A stretch of DNA of 64,000 bases from Thiospirochaeta perfilievii (GTDB taxonomy: Bacteria; Spirochaetota; Spirochaetia; DSM-2461), in assembly GCF_008329945.1 (NCBI RefSeq), contig NZ_CP035807.1:1488001-1552000 (forward strand), read 5' to 3'. How positions within the stretch are numbered: position 1 is the stretch's first letter; the number at the start of each line of letters is the position of its first letter. Of this stretch, positions 28,673 to 37,918 are shown one piece after another. Position numbers and translations under genes: made by a program. Under the pieces are notes generated by a model. The model ran no database searches, had not been told where the DNA came from, and was given only the letters and a program-made list of their open reading frames with translations.

Positions 28673-29958
28673 TTAATCCTCTTAACGGTCTCTTCTAGAT
28701 CAATACAAAATATTTTGCTTTCTCCATCTAATATCATATACTTATCTTGATATATGAAGTTGTGATTAAACTGGTTAGATCCTCCATATACATCAGAACT
28801 TTTGGCAACTAAAGTACCATCTTTAGCATCAAAAATATAAAAGTTCTTTTGGCTACCAACAAATAGATAGCCACCATATACTACTGGTCTAGCACCAAGA
28901 GTGAAATCTATAGACAAATCCCCCCATACTTGCTCTCCTGTATCCATGTTGACACATTGAACATTATCTCTCTGTATCGCAGAATACGAAAATGAACCAT
29001 TAGTTGAGTAAAATAGGTTGTCTACAACAAAACCACCTGAATCATCCCCAGAACCAGGGCTAACCTCATATAATAATTCTCCTGTTGATTTATCTATTAA
29101 TCCAAACCCCCTTATATCACTTAAAAATAGATTATCACCACGGTTATAGAAGTTATACTGTGCACCACCACCAAATAACTTGTCGACCTCAGTTTCCCAT
29201 AAAATATCACCTTTTATTAGATCCAAAGCGTAGTATTTGGGTCTCCATTCATTATTAAAATCAGAAGCATTACTTCCAAAATAGGCTGTATCATCTTCTA
29301 TATATATAGAACCTTCTATCGACTCTTTATAACTCAAGTCGTTTTCATGTAGTACTGTTATTGTCCCTATATTTTCATTACTACTATTGAGTTTTACATC
29401 ATCTACAATATCAATAGAGACTAATCCTAATGGAATACCATCTGAGGTTTCACAATATCGCGTACCCCAATAAAGTGTAGTTCCTACTGAAAATATATAA
29501 TAACCAGAATGCATAAACTGATTCTTCTCGTTATCTGGGTATCTGTTTACACCATCTAATGTTAAAAATATCCTCTTTTCTACTTCTCCTGTTGTTGGAT
29601 TTAAGAGTAAAAGCTCTGGTAATGAACCATCAATAGCAATAATATGTCCCCCAACATAGAGTGGGCTATTATACATATCTATATTATCAGTTTTATCCCA
29701 AAGAAGTTCCCCGCTCTCCATAGAAAAAGCTATAAGGCCTTCCCTTGGGTTTCTCCTATACCCTATATTGTCAACCACCAAGATTTTATTTGAACTGGTA
29801 GTTCGTACATCCAATGTCCATTTTAATGGTATAGAGATATTCTTAATTTCTTCATCTTTTTTAAATATTTTATCTAATATGAGAGAACAAGAGCTTAATA
29901 ATATTAGTAGTAATACAGGTAGAATAACTCTACCTGACATTTTAATAGTTTTAATCAT
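28669..29958 (-). CDS. PQQ-like beta-propeller lipoprotein
   Basis: A 429-residue lipoprotein (LLSSC). Repeated blade motifs are visible: GLIAFSMESGELLWDKTD, YYALDLIKGDILWETEV, GLIDKSTGELLYEV, VNMDTGEQVWGD and IFDAKDGTLVAKS. These are the hallmark of PQQ-type or BamB-like propellers of seven to eight blades. No cofactor-binding residues are recognisable, so a scaffold or binding role is more likely than a dehydrogenase. It overlaps both neighbours by 4 bp within a tightly coupled operon of exported proteins. Confidence 0.82.
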   Translation of the reverse strand: MIKTIKMSGRVILPVLLLILLSSCSLILDKIFKKDEEIKNISIPLKWTLDVRTTSSNKILVVDNIGYRRNPREGLIAFSMESGELLWDKTDNIDMYNSPLYVGGHIIAIDGSLPELLLLNPTTGEVEKRIFLTLDGVNRYPDNEKNQFMHSGYYIFSVGTTLYWGTRYCETSDGIPLGLVSIDIVDDVKLNSSNENIGTITVLHENDLSYKESIEGSIYIEDDTAYFGSNASDFNNEWRPKYYALDLIKGDILWETEVDKLFGGGAQYNFYNRGDNLFLSDIRGFGLIDKSTGELLYEVSPGSGDDSGGFVVDNLFYSTNGSFSYSAIQRDNVQCVNMDTGEQVWGDLSIDFTLGARPVVYGGYLFVGSQKNFYIFDAKDGTLVAKSSDVYGGSNQFNHNFIYQDKYMILDGESKIFCIDLEETVKRIK

Positions 29959-31229
29959 TTCACAACAGTTCCACTAGTTTTATATATATTTTGATAAGAC
30001 AGCCACTTTTCAATCTGTGAACCTTTATCAAAGGCTCCTTTCGAAAGACTGTAGTTATCTCCAATACCCCAAATCTCATCATCAGACATCTCTTGTAAAT
30101 GGTTTACATTCTTTCTAACATAAAACTCTCCATTTTTCCCAATAGGGGTTCCCCCTAATCCAGTTAATGAACGTTTCTGATCAGACTCTAAAATAAAAGA
30201 GTCATTTGCTGTTGAACCGAATATATCACCTAAAATCTTCTCAGGATTTGCTACTAATCTTTTAGCTGTTCTACAAGCTTTTGCATTTCTAAAATAATTC
30301 CTACTGGTATTTGTCCAAAATATAGGTTTTGTTAGAACACCATAAGCTGTATGAAAAACATTACCTACATCAAAAGCTATACTTAACCCCGAAGAGACTT
30401 TTCTAGCTGTTTGTTGTCCCTTACTATCTAAGAACTCAATAGGATCGTTTTGAGTCCCAACAATAAACCCAATAGGAATACTACTATCGATTCTATTTTG
30501 AGGTACTACATAATTTTTTGTTACATATTTATACCCATAGGTCCAACTAAATGACACTTTTGGTACTCGAAACCATCCAACTTTTACATACTTTACTTTT
30601 CTAACAAGCTTTTTTTTATATTTAACTAGCTTTTTAAAACTTTTTTGAGCGAGTTTAGGGTTAACATAATTTTTAAAATAGTCAGAATTAGGGTTTAAAT
30701 CTTTTATCCCTTCTTTATTAAAAATTTCACCCGTTTTTATATTATTTAACAAAGGGTCTTCAAAACCAAAAGCATCCATTATACCAAAGGCATTATTAGA
30801 GTTTAATCTTACAGGAGGTATAGAATATGGTCCTAATAATAATGCACTTAAACCACCAGATAAGTCCCCTACTACTTTATCAATTCTGCTCATTAGAACA
30901 TTCTCTCCTACAACTAATGGAGAATACCCTTTAACCGGAGAACCTATAGTTATTAGAGCTTTTACATTTTTTTGGGCTTTATAAGCATACCCTAGTGCTC
31001 TCACTCCCCCTTGGCTGTGGGCTATAACAACTGTGTCTTTATTTAAATATTTATTATGAACATATTCAACTTGGCTTTCTATGGATGTCTCATCAGTTCT
31101 AGGTATTTCTCCTGTTACAGTATCAGGTTCACCTAGCTTACTCATAATCCCTTGGAAAAATATTATCTCTTCTGAAAATAACTGCGAAGATAAAACAATT
31201 ATACTAATTATAAAAATTATTTTTTTCAT
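29955..31229 (-). CDS. Exported alpha/beta-hydrolase (lipase/esterase-like)
   Basis: About 424 residues. I chose the ATG at 31229 (KKIIFIISIIVLSS signal peptide) because GGTGAT lies just upstream and it avoids overlap with the previous gene. The nucleophile elbow is VIAHSQGGVRALG with Ser in SQGG, preceded by the usual strand and followed by ALITIGSPVKGYSP, a standard pattern in lipases and PGAP1-like esterases. A basic Lys/Tyr-rich stretch (about 215-250) is unusual. It probably hydrolyses an ester or lipid in the periplasm or outside the cell. Confidence 0.75.
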   Translation of the reverse strand: MKKIIFIISIIVLSSQLFSEEIIFFQGIMSKLGEPDTVTGEIPRTDETSIESQVEYVHNKYLNKDTVVIAHSQGGVRALGYAYKAQKNVKALITIGSPVKGYSPLVVGENVLMSRIDKVVGDLSGGLSALLLGPYSIPPVRLNSNNAFGIMDAFGFEDPLLNNIKTGEIFNKEGIKDLNPNSDYFKNYVNPKLAQKSFKKLVKYKKKLVRKVKYVKVGWFRVPKVSFSWTYGYKYVTKNYVVPQNRIDSSIPIGFIVGTQNDPIEFLDSKGQQTARKVSSGLSIAFDVGNVFHTAYGVLTKPIFWTNTSRNYFRNAKACRTAKRLVANPEKILGDIFGSTANDSFILESDQKRSLTGLGGTPIGKNGEFYVRKNVNHLQEMSDDEIWGIGDNYSLSKGAFDKGSQIEKWLSYQNIYKTSGTVVK

Positions 31230-31237
31230 ATTATCAC

Positions 31238-32203
31238 CTACCACTCTATTCTTAATAAGGATTCATCAACTGAGTTGATATCGATTTCGCTATATAATTG
31301 AATTTCTGTTTCTATATAATCTAGATCTGATGGATCTCCAATAACTGGAATGACTTCATATGCTAATCCACCTTCATTTTCTAAATCATCAATCTCTTCA
31401 AGGGACATTTCCTCAATATTTTCTTCAGATTCTATAATTGGTAAACCATAGTCTGATGCGTCGATACTTTTATTTAGGTCATATTTTGATTCAGTTATTT
31501 CTCCAATTTTTAACATTTCACCATCTACTTCCTGGTATACATATTCTGTCGTGGTAGTTAAATTTGTTCCATCTTCTAAAATTTCCTCTGATTCTGATCC
31601 AATCAATAGTTCATCAATTAAATCAAAAGTAAGCTTTAGATTATTTGATGGTATATTTACTAGCAGAGTATTGCTCTCTTCATCTACAGTTATATCTTTT
31701 GTTAAGTCATATAATTGAGTCTTAAAGTTTATAAAATTGGGTATTCTAGCCTGAATGAACATTTTATTCATACTGTCAAAAACCTCAAAACCCATTTCAG
31801 GTTCTAATAAATTTAATTCATACCTTTGTTCTAATTTATTGCTAGTTGACTGGAAAATAAATAGATCTCTTTCATTTGTAATACAACTTCGAGCAATACC
31901 ATCTGAGAACATATCTGTGGGGTAATCTATTCGAGAATGAATAATTCCATCGATCTCTTTAACTGATAAACGGTACCTTTGTTCCTCTGTGATTCCACCA
32001 ATTTCCCTGTTATTTCCTGAATAGACAGTGACATCAGCTGAAAAGCTTTTAATATCCTCTATAGATCCAGATTTAACTGCAATAGAGACAGGGTCTAATT
32101 GTTGGCCAATTGATGATTCTAAATTAGACAGACTAGTTTCTTGTTGACAAGACATTATTATAACAACACTTAACAACACATAACAACACATAACTTTTTT
32201 CAT
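31238..32203 (-). CDS. Lipoprotein of unknown function, LolA/LppX-like fold possible
   Basis: A 321-residue lipoprotein (VVIIMSC). The mature part opens SIEDIKSFSADVTVYSG and continues with RYRLSVKEIDGIIHSRIDY. Such strand patterns resemble LolA/LppX-like lipid-binding half-barrels. The last third is very acidic (EENIEEMSLEEIDDLENEGG). It is the first gene of the lipoprotein operon and has a strong promoter upstream. Function unknown. Confidence 0.6.
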   Translation of the reverse strand: MKKVMCCYVLLSVVIIMSCQQETSLSNLESSIGQQLDPVSIAVKSGSIEDIKSFSADVTVYSGNNREIGGITEEQRYRLSVKEIDGIIHSRIDYPTDMFSDGIARSCITNERDLFIFQSTSNKLEQRYELNLLEPEMGFEVFDSMNKMFIQARIPNFINFKTQLYDLTKDITVDEESNTLLVNIPSNNLKLTFDLIDELLIGSESEEILEDGTNLTTTTEYVYQEVDGEMLKIGEITESKYDLNKSIDASDYGLPIIESEENIEEMSLEEIDDLENEGGLAYEVIPVIGDPSDLDYIETEIQLYSEIDINSVDESLLRIEW

Positions 32204-32333: not shown

Positions 32334-33767
32334 TTAGAATATAAAATCCAAGCCAATAGTAAGGGTATCATTATTGTCATACTGGCCAAATGTAGTTGTA
32401 GCCCCACCCTCTAATAGTAGGTACTGAGCATAGATTTTACTATTGTCATTTATACTATAAGTAGCCTTTGGTTTTGCCATAAAATCCCTATCAACAATAC
32501 TGTATGAACCTGTAATTTCTAGAGAGAGCTTTTCATTTAGATATGAATCTGAAACTCTACCCATAATTGATAAAGTCCAATACTCATCCGAAGTACTATA
32601 TTGTGGATCTAGTACTCCAATATTAGAACTACTTAAAATAACATCTCCCACACCTTGAAGAAGTATGTTCATATTGTTTATTGGAAGGTTTATATCAAAT
32701 CCTAGAATATACTTTACAGAGTTGTTATTTACTGCAGGGTCACTTCCATCTAAGTCATTTGTTAGATTATATGCTAATTCTCCCTTTGTATTAAAAGAGC
32801 CTATTTGAGCTGCTATATCAAACCCTATTGTTTGAACCCTATTATAAATAAGATTAAGCCTTAAATTTTCAAGAACATCTGCTGGGTCTAAGGTAGGTTG
32901 CTTTAAGAACCCGTAGTAGTAGGTAAAACCTAAATCCATGTAGTTTAGACTTGTTGTAAATCTTGCTGCAACTTGGCTATCAATAAAATACTCTGCTTCA
33001 TCAAAGTTAATAGTAGAAACTATCGTAGATGCAGCATTTTTAGACTGTTGATCTGCACTAGATTCAATAATACTTTGTGGAGTGTTATTTGGTAAAGATG
33101 CTGTAACTTGTTCTAAAATACTTGGATAAGCCATAAGATAAATAGTCTCTTCCATATTTTTTATATATGCTGGGGTCCAAGTTCCACTTAAAGGAATATT
33201 ATCCCCTTGAAAGCTAGGAAGATAGGACACTTCTAAAAGAGAATTAACTCCTATTGGAACATTTACCTTTACCATCTGTTGGGAGATTTTACTATCTAAA
33301 TAACTTGTCCCAAAGGGATCGGAGTAGTCTAAGGGATTTAAAAGGTCTACAGCGTGTATCCCATCAGCGTTACCCCAAATTGGTTTTAATAATCCTACCT
33401 CTAGATCAAACATAGAGTTATAATATCGAATATAGAGGGTATCTATAAATGTAAAAGCTCTATAGGGACTATTTTGTAGGGGGAAATCACAAAAGTCATT
33501 AAAATTTTCTAGCTTAACATCAAAGTTACCAATTATATCAAAGGATGAACTCTCCCCTGTTATATCTATATCCAGGTATGCAGCACCCCTCCACTCACCA
33601 TCTATATATTGAGTATTAAAACCAGCTAAACCACCAGAGTTCACCATAATAAGTGAAGTCTCTTCCTCATCCATATTAAAATCATCTTCAAAAAAGAATG
33701 AGTCCTCCTGGGCAATAAGTATAAAAGAGATACTAAATAACAGAATTAAAAAATTAACTTTTTTCAT
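32334..33767 (-). CDS. Outer-membrane beta-barrel protein of the exporter operon (DUF1302/porin-like)
   Basis: A 477-residue protein with a signal peptide ending near ILIAQ. The mature chain has long alternating strands, many Tyr, Asn and Asp turns, and ends in TLTIGLDFIF with a terminal Phe as expected for BAM-inserted barrels. An NSPYRAFTFIDTLYIRYYN segment is typical of DUF1302-like proteins that accompany MMPL exporters. It is 1 bp after the LolA-like gene and closes the operon. It probably gives the RND exporter an outer-membrane receiving or passage partner (inference). Confidence 0.78.
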   Translation of the reverse strand: MKKVNFLILLFSISFILIAQEDSFFFEDDFNMDEEETSLIMVNSGGLAGFNTQYIDGEWRGAAYLDIDITGESSSFDIIGNFDVKLENFNDFCDFPLQNSPYRAFTFIDTLYIRYYNSMFDLEVGLLKPIWGNADGIHAVDLLNPLDYSDPFGTSYLDSKISQQMVKVNVPIGVNSLLEVSYLPSFQGDNIPLSGTWTPAYIKNMEETIYLMAYPSILEQVTASLPNNTPQSIIESSADQQSKNAASTIVSTINFDEAEYFIDSQVAARFTTSLNYMDLGFTYYYGFLKQPTLDPADVLENLRLNLIYNRVQTIGFDIAAQIGSFNTKGELAYNLTNDLDGSDPAVNNNSVKYILGFDINLPINNMNILLQGVGDVILSSSNIGVLDPQYSTSDEYWTLSIMGRVSDSYLNEKLSLEITGSYSIVDRDFMAKPKATYSINDNSKIYAQYLLLEGGATTTFGQYDNNDTLTIGLDFIF

Positions 33768-33768
33768 A

Positions 33769-34539
33769 CTATTTAACCCTTCCAGTTGTTAAAAACCTCT
33801 TTTCAAATAGAGCGGGATTTATTCTTTTATTAACTTCTACCTTCTTATTAATAATTACAGAGGATCTATCATTTAATAAGTTCGCCATTTTTGTACTACC
33901 AGGAATCCAAAACCCATCAATCTTCTCTAAATCTCTAATGGTAAGAACCTTATTTAACTCACCATCTTTATTATAGAGTTCAACCTTAATAGGTATTAAA
34001 ATATCACTATCCTTTATAATCCACTGAACCCGTCTACCATACTGACTATCTGATAAATCCTTTGGAATAGACTCTACAACATAACATTCATAACCATCTA
34101 AACTCTCTTCTTTTAATAGTTTATGGTTATCGTCATCTATATCTCCTCCTGACATATCATCATAAGTAAATTCCGTACCCATAAATGCTGAATCCCCATC
34201 GGAAGCTGCAATTCTACGAACCTTTCCTAAAGCTGGCATAAAGATCCACTTATCATCCCCACTCTCATTCTCTTTTATTAAGAACCGAGTATCTTTAACA
34301 GAAGCTGGAGCCCGGAAAACCATTATCTGATTCGAAAGTTCATTTGAGTCTGAGTTTCCCCACATCTCAACTACTCTACTCTTTTCACTTCCATTTGCTT
34401 CTGTAATAATAAGCTCTACTAACATGTGGGTTGAGTCTGGACTCTTCTTCGTCTCCATCATCTCCATTACATCTAATCCTGTAACGGAATAAATTAAGCT
34501 AGTTGATAATAATAATCCTATTACTAATAATTTTTTCAT
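33769..34539 (-). CDS. LolA-like outer-membrane lipoprotein-sorting protein
   Basis: A 256-residue protein with a signal peptide. The segment DKWIFMPALGKVRRIAASDGDSAFMGTEFTYDD is highly typical of the Pfam outer-membrane lipoprotein-sorting family found with MMPL exporters, as is YGRRVQWIIKDSDILIPIKVE. It probably binds a lipid in the periplasm and passes it between the exporter and the outer membrane. The gene lies 8 bp after the exporter gene. Confidence 0.9.
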   Translation of the reverse strand: MKKLLVIGLLLSTSLIYSVTGLDVMEMMETKKSPDSTHMLVELIITEANGSEKSRVVEMWGNSDSNELSNQIMVFRAPASVKDTRFLIKENESGDDKWIFMPALGKVRRIAASDGDSAFMGTEFTYDDMSGGDIDDDNHKLLKEESLDGYECYVVESIPKDLSDSQYGRRVQWIIKDSDILIPIKVELYNKDGELNKVLTIRDLEKIDGFWIPGSTKMANLLNDRSSVIINKKVEVNKRINPALFEKRFLTTGRVK

Positions 34540-34547
34540 AATCTCTC

Positions 34548-37214
34548 CTATTTTCTAATAAATTTTGGTTTAAAAATATTTAATAATCCAGGCATTATGG
34601 TCATAGAAGCTATAGATGCAATTAACATTGTTATTGCAATAAGCAGACCTAAATACATTAGTGGATAAAAGTTTGACTTTAATAATACAGAGAATCCTGC
34701 AGCAACAGAGACGGCATTAAAAATAATAGCCTTACCAGAAGACATTAAGGACTCTCTTGTTACCTCATTAACATCATCTAACTTCTGGGAATATTTATGA
34801 TATGAGGCTAGAAAATGAATGGTATAATCGATTCCTATACCTATAGCTATACTTCCAACCATTGCTGTACTCATATCCAGTTTAATTCCTAAAAAGCCCA
34901 TTAAACCGTAGTTAAATAGAACTGTAAAACCTAGAGGGACCATCCCAAACAGTCCAGCAAAGAGGGATTTATATGCTATGGAGAGAATAATAAAAACCAT
35001 CAATAAAGATATTAAAACACTATTCATAGCTGATGTCGTAATTAATCTTGTAATACTATCCTCTGCTAAGGCTGTTCCGGCTAGTGATACATTGTATCCT
35101 TTAGGGAAGTACTCTTCTATATAGTTATTAATTACTGGAATTAACTCCCTTGTGAACATATTCCCATCATTATTCATCATAACTGTCATCTTAATATTCT
35201 CTGGAGAGAGAGGGTCATCATTTTTACCTACAAAACCTTCAAGTTTTCCAGTCATGGCATAATATTGGCTTAGTAGATTGGATAAGTCTAACATTTCATC
35301 ATGACCATATTTAGCAGGATCAGTTGGTATTTCAAAGAAGTCATAACCTTTATAATTTGTCTCTCTCTTTAGTAGATCAAGAAGTTCTACTGCTGAAATA
35401 TTAGGGTTATCAGCCCTTGCATATGCACTAGTTAAAAGATTCATTAAACCTGTAGTATCTATATCTTTATTTCTATTATTGTTAACTGGAACTACTAGTT
35501 CTGCAGAACTATCGTCTTCATAAAAACTATCGTCTTCATAAAAACTATCGTCTTCATAAAAACTATCATCTTCATAGAAACTATCATCTTCATAGAAACT
35601 ATCATCTTCATAGAAACTATCATCTTCATAGAAACTATCATCACTATTTACTACTGAATCAATATCTCCTAGACCATCATCTCCATCAACATGCATTACC
35701 TGGTTCATTCGTTTAACAGTATCTGTAAATGATAAAACCTTAGGGATCTCTTTGTAATTTGTTATTAAATAGTCACTTAAATCATCCATAGCCTTTAATA
35801 GAAGTGGATCTACCCCAGCACCTTCCCCATTTATTACTATGTCAAATGAGTTAGTTCCAGTAAACTTATCCCTTAAAAACCTATCTGAAACCCTAATATG
35901 AGTTGTCTCCTTAAAATACTCAATAACAGCATTATCAATAATTAAACTTTTGGTTCCTATACCTGAAAGAACTAAAACTATTAAAGAGAAAAAGAGTATA
36001 AGGTACTTTCTTCTACCTAAGGAGTCATAATATAGACTTAGGCCCCTTTCCAATAACCCCCTCTTAGAGTAATTTTTTATACTCTTTTTTTTAGAGGCAC
36101 TTTTATAATTAAAAACTAGTAGGGCAGGAATTAGAGTTAAAGCTACAATAACTGCAAAAACAATACCTATAGATGTAAATATACCAAAGTTACGCATTGG
36201 ACTAATAAGACTAAAACCAAGGGATGCAAAACCAGCAACAGTTGTTAAACCAGCTAAAAATATCGGTTTTTTAACATACATAAGGGAGTTTAATATAATT
36301 TCATTATGTTTTTCCCTGGATAGTTCTCCATTATATGCCTTTACATCATCGTAGTAGTGACTAATAACATGTATTCCATAGGCACTTCCCACAGCCATCA
36401 TTAACACTGGGATAATTATACCTAAAATAGATAGGGGAACATGCAATAGTCCCATTAAACCTATTGTCCATATAGTACTAATTAATACTGTTATCATTGG
36501 AAGTAAAATCCCACTTAATCTTCTAAAGGATAGAAATAAGGCAAAAAGAAGAACTAAAATAACAATAGGAATAAGTAGGGTTAAATCTCCCATCATATTC
36601 TCAGTTAACAAAACAGTCATAGATGGAAGTCCTGCTATATAGAAGTTTATACCATTATTATCAATACTTTCTGTTAACTTTTTTAAACCAAAATAGATAT
36701 CCCTCTCACCATCCGGACCTAAATCCGGTTTTAGTGTAACCATAATTTGGGAAGCACTATAATCACCTGAAATAAATACATCTTGGTAAATATCCCAGGA
36801 TAATATCCTATCCTTAAGTGTTTGAACATCCTCACGAGTTCCAGTAAAATCATCCACAAGGGAGGTAACAATTAGAGAACCATCAACACCATCTATATAG
36901 TCGCTATTAGTTAATGATTGAACCCGATCCACTCCTTCAAGCTTCTCAAACTCTTTAGTTAACTTATCTATAACTCTTAACGATTCAACACTAAATATTG
37001 AACCATTCTCCATCTCCATACCCACAGACATCATTAATACTGGGCCAAATATGTCCTTAGCTCTATCTATTGCTACCCTCTGAGGATTTTCTACAGGTAA
37101 AAAATTGAAAGTATTATTATCAATTTCAACTTTCTTTAGGTTGTAGCCAAAAAACAATGTAATAAGTGTTATTATACCTACTATAGTTTTAGGATACTTA
37201 AACAATCTTTTCAT
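34548..37214 (-). CDS. RND-superfamily (MMPL-type) lipid/hydrophobe exporter
   Basis: An 888-residue membrane protein with the RND layout: one TM, periplasmic loop (30-205), five or six TMs (205-380), a TM near 405, second periplasmic loop (430-710), and a final five or six TMs. TM4-like motifs are LMMAVGSAYGIHVISHYYDD and, in the second half, IGIGIDYTIHFLASYHK. The second loop holds seven perfect hexapeptide repeats DDSFYE (about 525-566), an acidic insert not usual for the family. It follows the TetR gene with its own operator. LolA-like and barrel partners follow, which suggests lipid traffic to the outer membrane. Confidence 0.92.
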   Translation of the reverse strand: MKRLFKYPKTIVGIITLITLFFGYNLKKVEIDNNTFNFLPVENPQRVAIDRAKDIFGPVLMMSVGMEMENGSIFSVESLRVIDKLTKEFEKLEGVDRVQSLTNSDYIDGVDGSLIVTSLVDDFTGTREDVQTLKDRILSWDIYQDVFISGDYSASQIMVTLKPDLGPDGERDIYFGLKKLTESIDNNGINFYIAGLPSMTVLLTENMMGDLTLLIPIVILVLLFALFLSFRRLSGILLPMITVLISTIWTIGLMGLLHVPLSILGIIIPVLMMAVGSAYGIHVISHYYDDVKAYNGELSREKHNEIILNSLMYVKKPIFLAGLTTVAGFASLGFSLISPMRNFGIFTSIGIVFAVIVALTLIPALLVFNYKSASKKKSIKNYSKRGLLERGLSLYYDSLGRRKYLILFFSLIVLVLSGIGTKSLIIDNAVIEYFKETTHIRVSDRFLRDKFTGTNSFDIVINGEGAGVDPLLLKAMDDLSDYLITNYKEIPKVLSFTDTVKRMNQVMHVDGDDGLGDIDSVVNSDDSFYEDDSFYEDDSFYEDDSFYEDDSFYEDDSFYEDDSFYEDDSSAELVVPVNNNRNKDIDTTGLMNLLTSAYARADNPNISAVELLDLLKRETNYKGYDFFEIPTDPAKYGHDEMLDLSNLLSQYYAMTGKLEGFVGKNDDPLSPENIKMTVMMNNDGNMFTRELIPVINNYIEEYFPKGYNVSLAGTALAEDSITRLITTSAMNSVLISLLMVFIILSIAYKSLFAGLFGMVPLGFTVLFNYGLMGFLGIKLDMSTAMVGSIAIGIGIDYTIHFLASYHKYSQKLDDVNEVTRESLMSSGKAIIFNAVSVAAGFSVLLKSNFYPLMYLGLLIAITMLIASIASMTIMPGLLNIFKPKFIRK
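35515..35640 (-). repeat. Seven tandem 18-bp coding repeats (DDSFYE)
   Basis: Seven back-to-back 18-bp units fill 126 bp. Plus-strand units at 35515-35568 have TCTTCATAAAAACTATC, while the four at 35569-35640 have TCTTCATAGAAACTATC, so synonymous variants lie in blocks. Because 18 is a multiple of 3, copy number can change without a frameshift. Confidence 0.97.
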
Positions 37215-37321: not shown

Positions 37322-37918
37322 TTAATTTGATTTTAAGTACTCTTCCATCGCTTCTGGAGTTAATATTCCATCGAGGATTATATCAATTGAGTATTTTAAA
37401 AGTTCTATCTTAGAAAACCCAACAATCTCTGGTCTCTCCCATGTGGCTAAACCTCTAATACTGTTTAAAAAAACGTAAGGAATCATCCCCACATGTATAC
37501 TCTGTTTTATAATTCCACTTTTCTGGGCAGCTGTTGCCAAATCTTCAATAACTTGCTGAATTTGCCCATTTAAAAAGAGACATTTAGGAGAAAATATTAT
37601 CCTAGCTGCGTTAGGGTCAACCTTTGTAGGATTCTCAAAGTTAGTATAGTGTTTATATAGATGCCTTATAGCAAGGTGTATCTTCTCTATAATTGTTTTA
37701 TTCCTACTGGTAAAAATATTGGATATATCTGTTAAAATCCCCTCCATACTAGAGTATATTATCTCTTCCATAAGGTTCTCTTTTGAACCAAAATTATTAT
37801 AAATTGTCTTTTTTGAGATCCCAATTTGGTCTGCTAACTCATCCATTGATATTTTACTAAGTCCAAACTTAAAAAAAATCTGGGAAGATCTCTCTAATAT
37901 TGCATCTTTTTTAGCCAT
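37322..37918 (-). CDS. TetR-family transcriptional regulator
   Basis: A 198-residue protein with the N-terminal TetR helix-turn-helix (ILERSSQIFFKFGLSKISMDELADQIGISKKTIYNNFGSKE segments at about 7-48) and a variable all-helical ligand domain. It directly precedes the RND exporter gene by 107 bp on the same strand. A perfect palindrome lies between them, so it is very likely the local repressor, induced by a hydrophobic substrate of the pump. Confidence 0.92.
   Translation of the reverse strand: MAKKDAILERSSQIFFKFGLSKISMDELADQIGISKKTIYNNFGSKENLMEEIIYSSMEGILTDISNIFTSRNKTIIEKIHLAIRHLYKHYTNFENPTKVDPNAARIIFSPKCLFLNGQIQQVIEDLATAAQKSGIIKQSIHVGMIPYVFLNSIRGLATWERPEIVGFSKIELLKYSIDIILDGILTPEAMEEYLKSN

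Follow-up and report, generated by a model that had tools for sequence, protein, structure and literature searches.

The window, a 64,000-nucleotide stretch of the Thiospirochaeta perfilievii genome (contig NZ_CP035807.1), contains a minus-strand operon in which a TetR-family regulator (37322-37918; PF00440, 5.7e-12) is followed by an MMPL/RND inner-membrane transporter of 888 aa (34548-37214; PF03176, 1.3e-51), a LolA_like periplasmic carrier of 256 aa (33769-34539; PF17131, 8.5e-59) and a predicted outer-membrane beta-barrel partner of 477 aa (32334-33767), a homologue of which is modelled as a porin-type barrel. Transporter and carrier pass the gathering scores of their families (176 bits versus 20.5 and 198.7 bits versus 30, respectively). 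The best-scoring subfamily for the transporter is HAE3 (TIGR00921; 4e-69), but its 233.5 bits fall under the curated cut-off of 351.9, and the transporter is not filed as a member of that family. The window barrel matches no Pfam family at 0.001; its operon position agrees with that of a DUF1302 partner. At its predicted mature N-terminus, following the putative signal-peptide cleavage site, the barrel carries an acidic-aromatic tail (QEDSFFFEDDFNMDEEE; 33660-33710, minus strand) that reads QEDSFFFEDDF. Beyond the barrel gene, the genes of a predicted lipoprotein and of an alpha/beta-hydrolase-like protein (29955-32203, minus strand) may join the operon, and a 10-bp tandem repeat of 3.5 copies (32160-32194) lies close to the start of the former gene.

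Within the transporter gene, TRF detected a period-18 tandem array (35507-35642; 7.6 copies, 98% matches) with a score of 230, far above chance. Read unit by unit on the minus strand, the array comprises seven perfect 18-bp units (35517-35642), each encoding DDSFYE (aa 525-566), that run from unit 1 at 35625-35642 to unit 7 at 35517-35534 and are accompanied by a degenerate eighth unit encoding DDSSAE (35499-35516). A sequence-only reading of this stretch had reported seven perfect DDSFYE units inside an exporter periplasmic loop, and both TRF and the unit-by-unit reading confirm them; it had placed them at 35515-35640, and the exact units lie 2 bp off those positions. The blocked grouping of synonymous versions that it described also holds, but we find three unit types rather than two, ordered as four copies of GATGATAGTTTCTATGAA, one of GATGATAGTTTTTATGAA and two of GACGATAGTTTTTATGAA. 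With these three blocked synonymous types, the window array is clearly slippage-born. In a scan of the whole 3.7-Mb genome with a DDSFYE-coding pattern that took serine as AGY only, all seven exact matches fell inside the array, and two one-mismatch matches were found elsewhere (L051 and L052; wider stretches L082 and L083). The complete variable loop harboring the array belongs to the second periplasmic domain of the RND protein and spans aa 508-582 (35469-35693, minus strand). The topology of RND transporters is known and, given the position of the loop between hydrophobic segments, the array-bearing loop is periplasmic.

Homologous systems were sought in a collection with one genome per species. 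At E 1e-80, 104 of 394 genomes of the host class gave a match; at E 1e-100, so did 21 of 59 from the class of Halanaerobium polyolivorans; in the class of a Psychrilyobacter MAG, 5 of 98 did. The host-class neighbourhoods comprised 129 RND ORFs, 103 of them with both a LolA-like gene and a barrel downstream, and the Halanaerobium-class set comprised 22 RND ORFs; a barrel was found downstream of 108 RND ORFs, and a LolA-like gene was there too in 103 of these 108. Two loci, one too near a contig end (L235) and one truncated (L247), were not used.

The closest homologue, from the same genus and about 70% identical, harbors four DDSFYS units in a different codon set. Because the codon sets differ, the window and same-genus arrays must have expanded or been homogenised separately, in support of the in-frame, slippage-type expansion put forward in the sequence-only reading. 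Among named relatives, a Spirochaetales MAG contig (L032) is the nearest. Homologues about 35-46% identical present a loop at the equivalent site with different arrays of one motif class, including SFFDD, DDWGD, PSFGDD, TSSFGEE and PPLGFE, and a few lack the loop. The arrays vary widely in length and sequence. The same repeat number and sequence, whose fixation in distant homologues would have refuted the sequence-only reading, occurs in none of the homologues listed. The L188 RND protein (G059) carries no array at the usual site and presents a GAFDESDFFTDSDFEAG segment about 70 residues closer to the N-terminus of that periplasmic domain; its partner barrel keeps the tail.

The mature N-terminus of the barrel displays a motif of the same class as the loop of the transporter it is paired with, also in the Halanaerobium and Psychrilyobacter relatives. 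Loop and tail read, respectively, DDSFYE and QEDSFFFEDDF in the window, LPPLGFEADLPPLGFE and QQPPPLGFD in L185, four PSFGDD units and LPSFDTPSDNSIPGFGDE in L150, DDWGDSGDDWGDS and QDDWGSDDW in L143, SFGFDF and STFGFD in L166, and DSFYQS and GSFYSS in L259. Under a composition rule, 123 RND/barrel pairs were classified as having both array and tail (108), array only (8), tail only (1) or neither (6), a co-presence with a Fisher p of 5e-6, uncorrected for phylogeny. The rule misfiles L185 (PPLGFE/PPLGFD) as having neither and L059 as having the tail only. By eye, the eight array-only pairs present a weaker or single aromatic motif in the tail, below threshold, and for one of them (L110) a late cut of the tail adds to this. 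Within the Halanaerobium group, all 14 FY/FF loops are paired with FY/FF tails and the five FG loops are not, so that 19 of 19 pairs agree, although these pairs come from related genomes and may represent a single change.

Exceptions were also observed. L161 and L163 combine a short loop, devoid of a repeated aromatic array, with a barrel beginning with a single SFFNT motif; loop and tail differ in L056/L057 (EEWSES versus GSFFEKED), and the L141 tail reads QFDELEQ. The L159 RND protein likewise has a short loop of this kind, and its barrel lies outside the L159 stretch. Loop and tail are jointly absent in four gammaproteobacterial loci, where the RND proteins of about 800 aa are loop-less judged by length, and in L079 and L172, where the absence of the loop was determined by length or alignment.

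By a simple rule, the tail is present in 27 of the 28 partner barrels whose signal peptide could be called, versus 8 of 83 other secreted proteins, and those eight look different by eye. No repeated tail was found among the 26 Omp85/OEP N-termini listed from eight genomes, several of which have unclear starts. A general outer-membrane sorting signal was rejected on these two counts. Several spirochaete BamA-like N-termini (L192-L199) are acidic and then read W or WY (e.g. QEDDDWY). Whole-genome scans for DDWGD returned nine sites in three genomes, all nine within the operon, and none in two other genomes. Similarly, the three PPLGF[DE] sites in one genome all lie within the operon; among other genomes this pattern occurs twice in one, outside the operon, and is absent from two more.

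Statistical support for the matching of loops to their own tails was assessed at several levels. Shuffling partners among 106 pairs yielded a z of 11.6, with 0 of 5000 shuffles reaching own-pair similarity, while a control segment gave a z of 0.7 and the LolA N-terminus one of 3.6; this set excluded L054 and L139, whose loop is identical to that of another row, and RND proteins without a barrel of at least 100 aa. For 123 pairs the z was 13.4 (0/10000; barrel control segment, -0.7), after exclusion of L125, L170, L191, L278 and L279 as miscalled, truncated or duplicate and with the displaced L188 array entered as the L188 loop, and an aromatic-centred score on 117 pairs gave a z of 15.3. Shuffle tests leave phylogeny in, and the value for the LolA N-terminus shows that phylogeny alone yields some signal.

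In phylogenetic contrasts, which take phylogeny out, on 100 pairs (excluding L170, L038, L172, L125, L079 and L188), five of ten motif features reached p < 0.05; on 117 pairs, five of ten reached p < 0.01, including W share (r = 0.55) and F-aromatic (r = 0.47), against none of ten for the control. Independent sister pairs moved up in 30 cases and down in 15, with 8 ties (sign p 0.018, Wilcoxon 0.007). In a larger sister-pair set, which left out five array-less pairs, p ranged over five clustering levels from 0.03 to 0.14 (sign) and from 0.012 to 0.089 (Wilcoxon; medians of 50 draws), and with the aromatic-centred score from 0.05 to 0.56 and from 0.012 to 0.15, respectively. Within-genome paralogue swaps (n = 12) gave 9 up, 2 down and 1 tie by one score, and 5 up, 6 down and 1 tie by a second. 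That loop and tail share a motif class is thus beyond doubt, and their step-by-step co-variation is supported, but not uniformly, the contrasts being positive and the sister-pair and paralogue-swap tests weaker or mixed. Matched residues share codons in 236 of 421 cases versus 214 expected (94 pairs). This agreement, barely above expectation, indicates that the match is kept at the peptide level and does not reflect a recent DNA copy. As read from the sequences compared, array, tail and common motif class are established along with their co-presence and co-absence, and co-variation less uniformly so.

The genome containing the window encodes five LolA_like genes, and the presence of array or insert is concordant with that of the tail in all five systems, with one ABC pair each way. 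Two RND systems, those of the window and L053, present both array and tail. In L081, the match to a distant 759-aa RND protein skips query residues 505-698, and the barrel has no tail. The L299 system (L299 4288-10090) consists of an ABC ATPase, two FtsX-type permeases, a LolA_like protein and a tailed barrel. Its first permease carries an acidic-aromatic insert (ELLSDDFDFDTMFSDEVAVSTNDDSF) that aligns with the tail of its own barrel (DFFSDDVDFEDMNFDDMFGEEGDDTF) over 26 residues. The ungapped score of 52 for this alignment is reached by 0 of 123 other tails against the insert and by 1 of 118 loops against the tail; the aromatic-centred score puts 9 of 121 tails and 0 of 118 loops level with or above the native pair. 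A second ABC-LolA_like-barrel cluster (L300 461-9023), with two permease pairs, has neither insert nor tail. What the RND and ABC types share is the LolA-like protein and the barrel.

Two AlphaFold2 models were made of read-through fusions of neighbouring L133 genes. The LolA+barrel model has a mean pLDDT of 80.9 and a pTM of 0.76, with residues 259-301 (linker, signal peptide and tail) below 50, and the RND+LolA model a pLDDT of 76.7 and a pTM of 0.65, with loop residues 513-576 below 50. These values suggest that loop and tail are disordered in L133. Neither fusion model gave a placement of the motif, its modelled position being meaningless at such pLDDT. Among Foldseek's best 1000 chains, the best-ranked match of the LolA part is P. 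gingivalis LolA3 (9tp6; Z 31.5, rmsd 1.7 over 233 residues, 38% identity), and DUF1329 4z48 is also matched (Z 30.0). The barrel part matches MOMP/OprD/AlgE-type barrels (Z about 20-23), and the RND part AcrB, NPC and Patched folds (Z 41.4-43.9 among the rows listed, rmsd mostly 5-6). Columns co-varying with motif type were not in excess in LolA (2049 tests, 0.10% at p < 0.001), nor in the barrel (0.12%) or the RND core (0.13%) at the same threshold. Mature LolA-like proteins have, on average, an acidic net charge (-4.6, sd 8.8), and the mean net charge over 112 pairs is -16.6 for the loop and -6.2 for the tail.

The recurrence of a shared acidic-aromatic motif on the outer-membrane partner points to docking. 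On somewhat better than even grounds, we favour a reading in which the DDSFYE array arose by recent expansion and serves, in the RND/MMPL periplasmic loop, as a multivalent and probably disordered segment for docking, and the mature N-terminus of the barrel displays a motif of the same kind, both being ligands for one periplasmic partner, most likely the LolA-like carrier encoded between them. This carrier would visit the exporter to load hydrophobic cargo and then the barrel to unload it, and additional loop copies may raise local concentration or avidity. The LolA-like shuttle is favoured as the soluble part of both RND and ABC systems and because published co-folding joins a DUF1329 relative to both sides. 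It is disfavoured by the lack of excess co-varying LolA columns and by the acidic charge of the LolA-like proteins, and the models do not place the motif on a receptor. We infer that the motif binds a protein, the LolA-like one, and that the cargo is hydrophobic and moves outwards. A wider proposal, which we rate slightly short of an even chance, is that of a trans-envelope docking code: transporters of two unrelated superfamilies, RND and LolC/MacB-type ABC, and their barrels would carry the same fast-evolving acidic-aromatic peptide, co-evolving as a system-specific password read by a LolA-fold shuttle or by direct sticking.

The main rival to docking on the LolA-like protein is that loop array and barrel tail stick directly, as like-with-like aromatic stickers, tethering exporter to barrel across the periplasm with no third protein. 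FG-repeats and aromatic segments of low complexity have been suggested to stick in this way. Self-associating peptides are typically multivalent low-complexity F/W/Y-G segments, which speaks for it here, as do the co-variation of loop and tail and the lack of excess co-variation in LolA columns. Nevertheless, both segments are strongly acidic and should therefore repel each other unless bridged by cations, and the regular presence of the LolA-like gene beside the barrel argues against a two-part tether, which we consider improbable. Somewhat less probable still is that both segments bind something that is no part of the operon, be it peptidoglycan, an assembly factor or cations, and just share its specificity. 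That neither LolA nor the barrel nor the RND core shows an excess of co-varying columns fits this explanation, but the motif varies by system rather than by genome, with three systems carrying both segments and two carrying neither in the window's genome, in four genomes the motifs scanned for occur nowhere but in the operon, and most other secreted proteins examined do not bear the motif.

Neutral slippage of low-complexity sequence in a tolerant loop, with the likeness of the tail arising from genome composition, shared ancestry or gene conversion, would account for the slippage-born window array and for the weak sister-pair tests. We deem it unlikely, since the codons of matched residues differ almost as frequently as expected (gene conversion as the source of the match was rejected on this codon use), the contrasts survive phylogeny where those of the control segment do not, and the motif is exclusive to the operon, with array and tail absent together. 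The least probable alternative is the acidic aromatic stalk of the sequence-only reading, binding metal or modulating substrate access to the exporter. High acid content and a location within the periplasmic domain are in its favour, but it does not predict the same motif on an outer-membrane partner and on an unrelated ABC permease, and motif forms with few acids exist, such as PPLGFE. This claim found no support and, because the outer-membrane partner bears the same motif, was rejected as the main reading.

If docking on the LolA-like carrier is true, a shared, co-varying peptide would be a simple answer to how LolA-fold shuttles find both transporter and outer-membrane acceptor, partners would be predictable from sequence, the tandem repeat would constitute a tunable avidity module, and RND and ABC lipid exporters would come under one docking rule. 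The operon type itself is already known (PMC6394551, PMC10434189), and our searches of open-access papers found no description of a matched loop/tail motif. AmeABCD of Castellaniella defragrans, tied to monoterpene efflux and with AmeC as its fourth component, likewise joins an RND protein to a periplasmic DUF1329 protein of the LolA superfamily and a DUF1302 protein predicted to lie in the outer membrane, but no matched motif is described in the available portion of that report (PMC6394551). In P. putida, PP_0765/PP_0766/PP_2018/PP_2019 comprise a DUF1302 barrel, a DUF1329 protein, a periplasmic protein and an efflux transporter, and published AlphaFold co-folding predicts contacts of the DUF1329 protein on both sides, with the barrel as well as the PP_2018/PP_2019 pair; the text available describes no disordered array or tail (PMC10866462).

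The iron-regulated TetR-ABC-MMPL-'lipoprotein-sorting protein' operons of Porphyromonas and Prevotella also bring together TetR, an MMPL transporter and a LolA-like gene, and differ in their extra ABC ATPases (PMC10434189). In LolCDE-LolA-LolB and Borrelia BBJ23-29, an inner-membrane transporter passes hydrophobic cargo to a LolA-fold shuttle, a layout like that of the L299 ABC system, but the parts of the source at hand describe no matched tail/loop motif (PMC13078400). Finally, P. gingivalis LolA3 (9tp6), for which weak LolB binding is reported and a separate function proposed, presents a positive potential around its opening, in contrast to the acidic-on-average LolA-like proteins analysed here, and its weak LolB binding makes it an example of a shuttle whose choice of partner needs explaining (PMC13103446).
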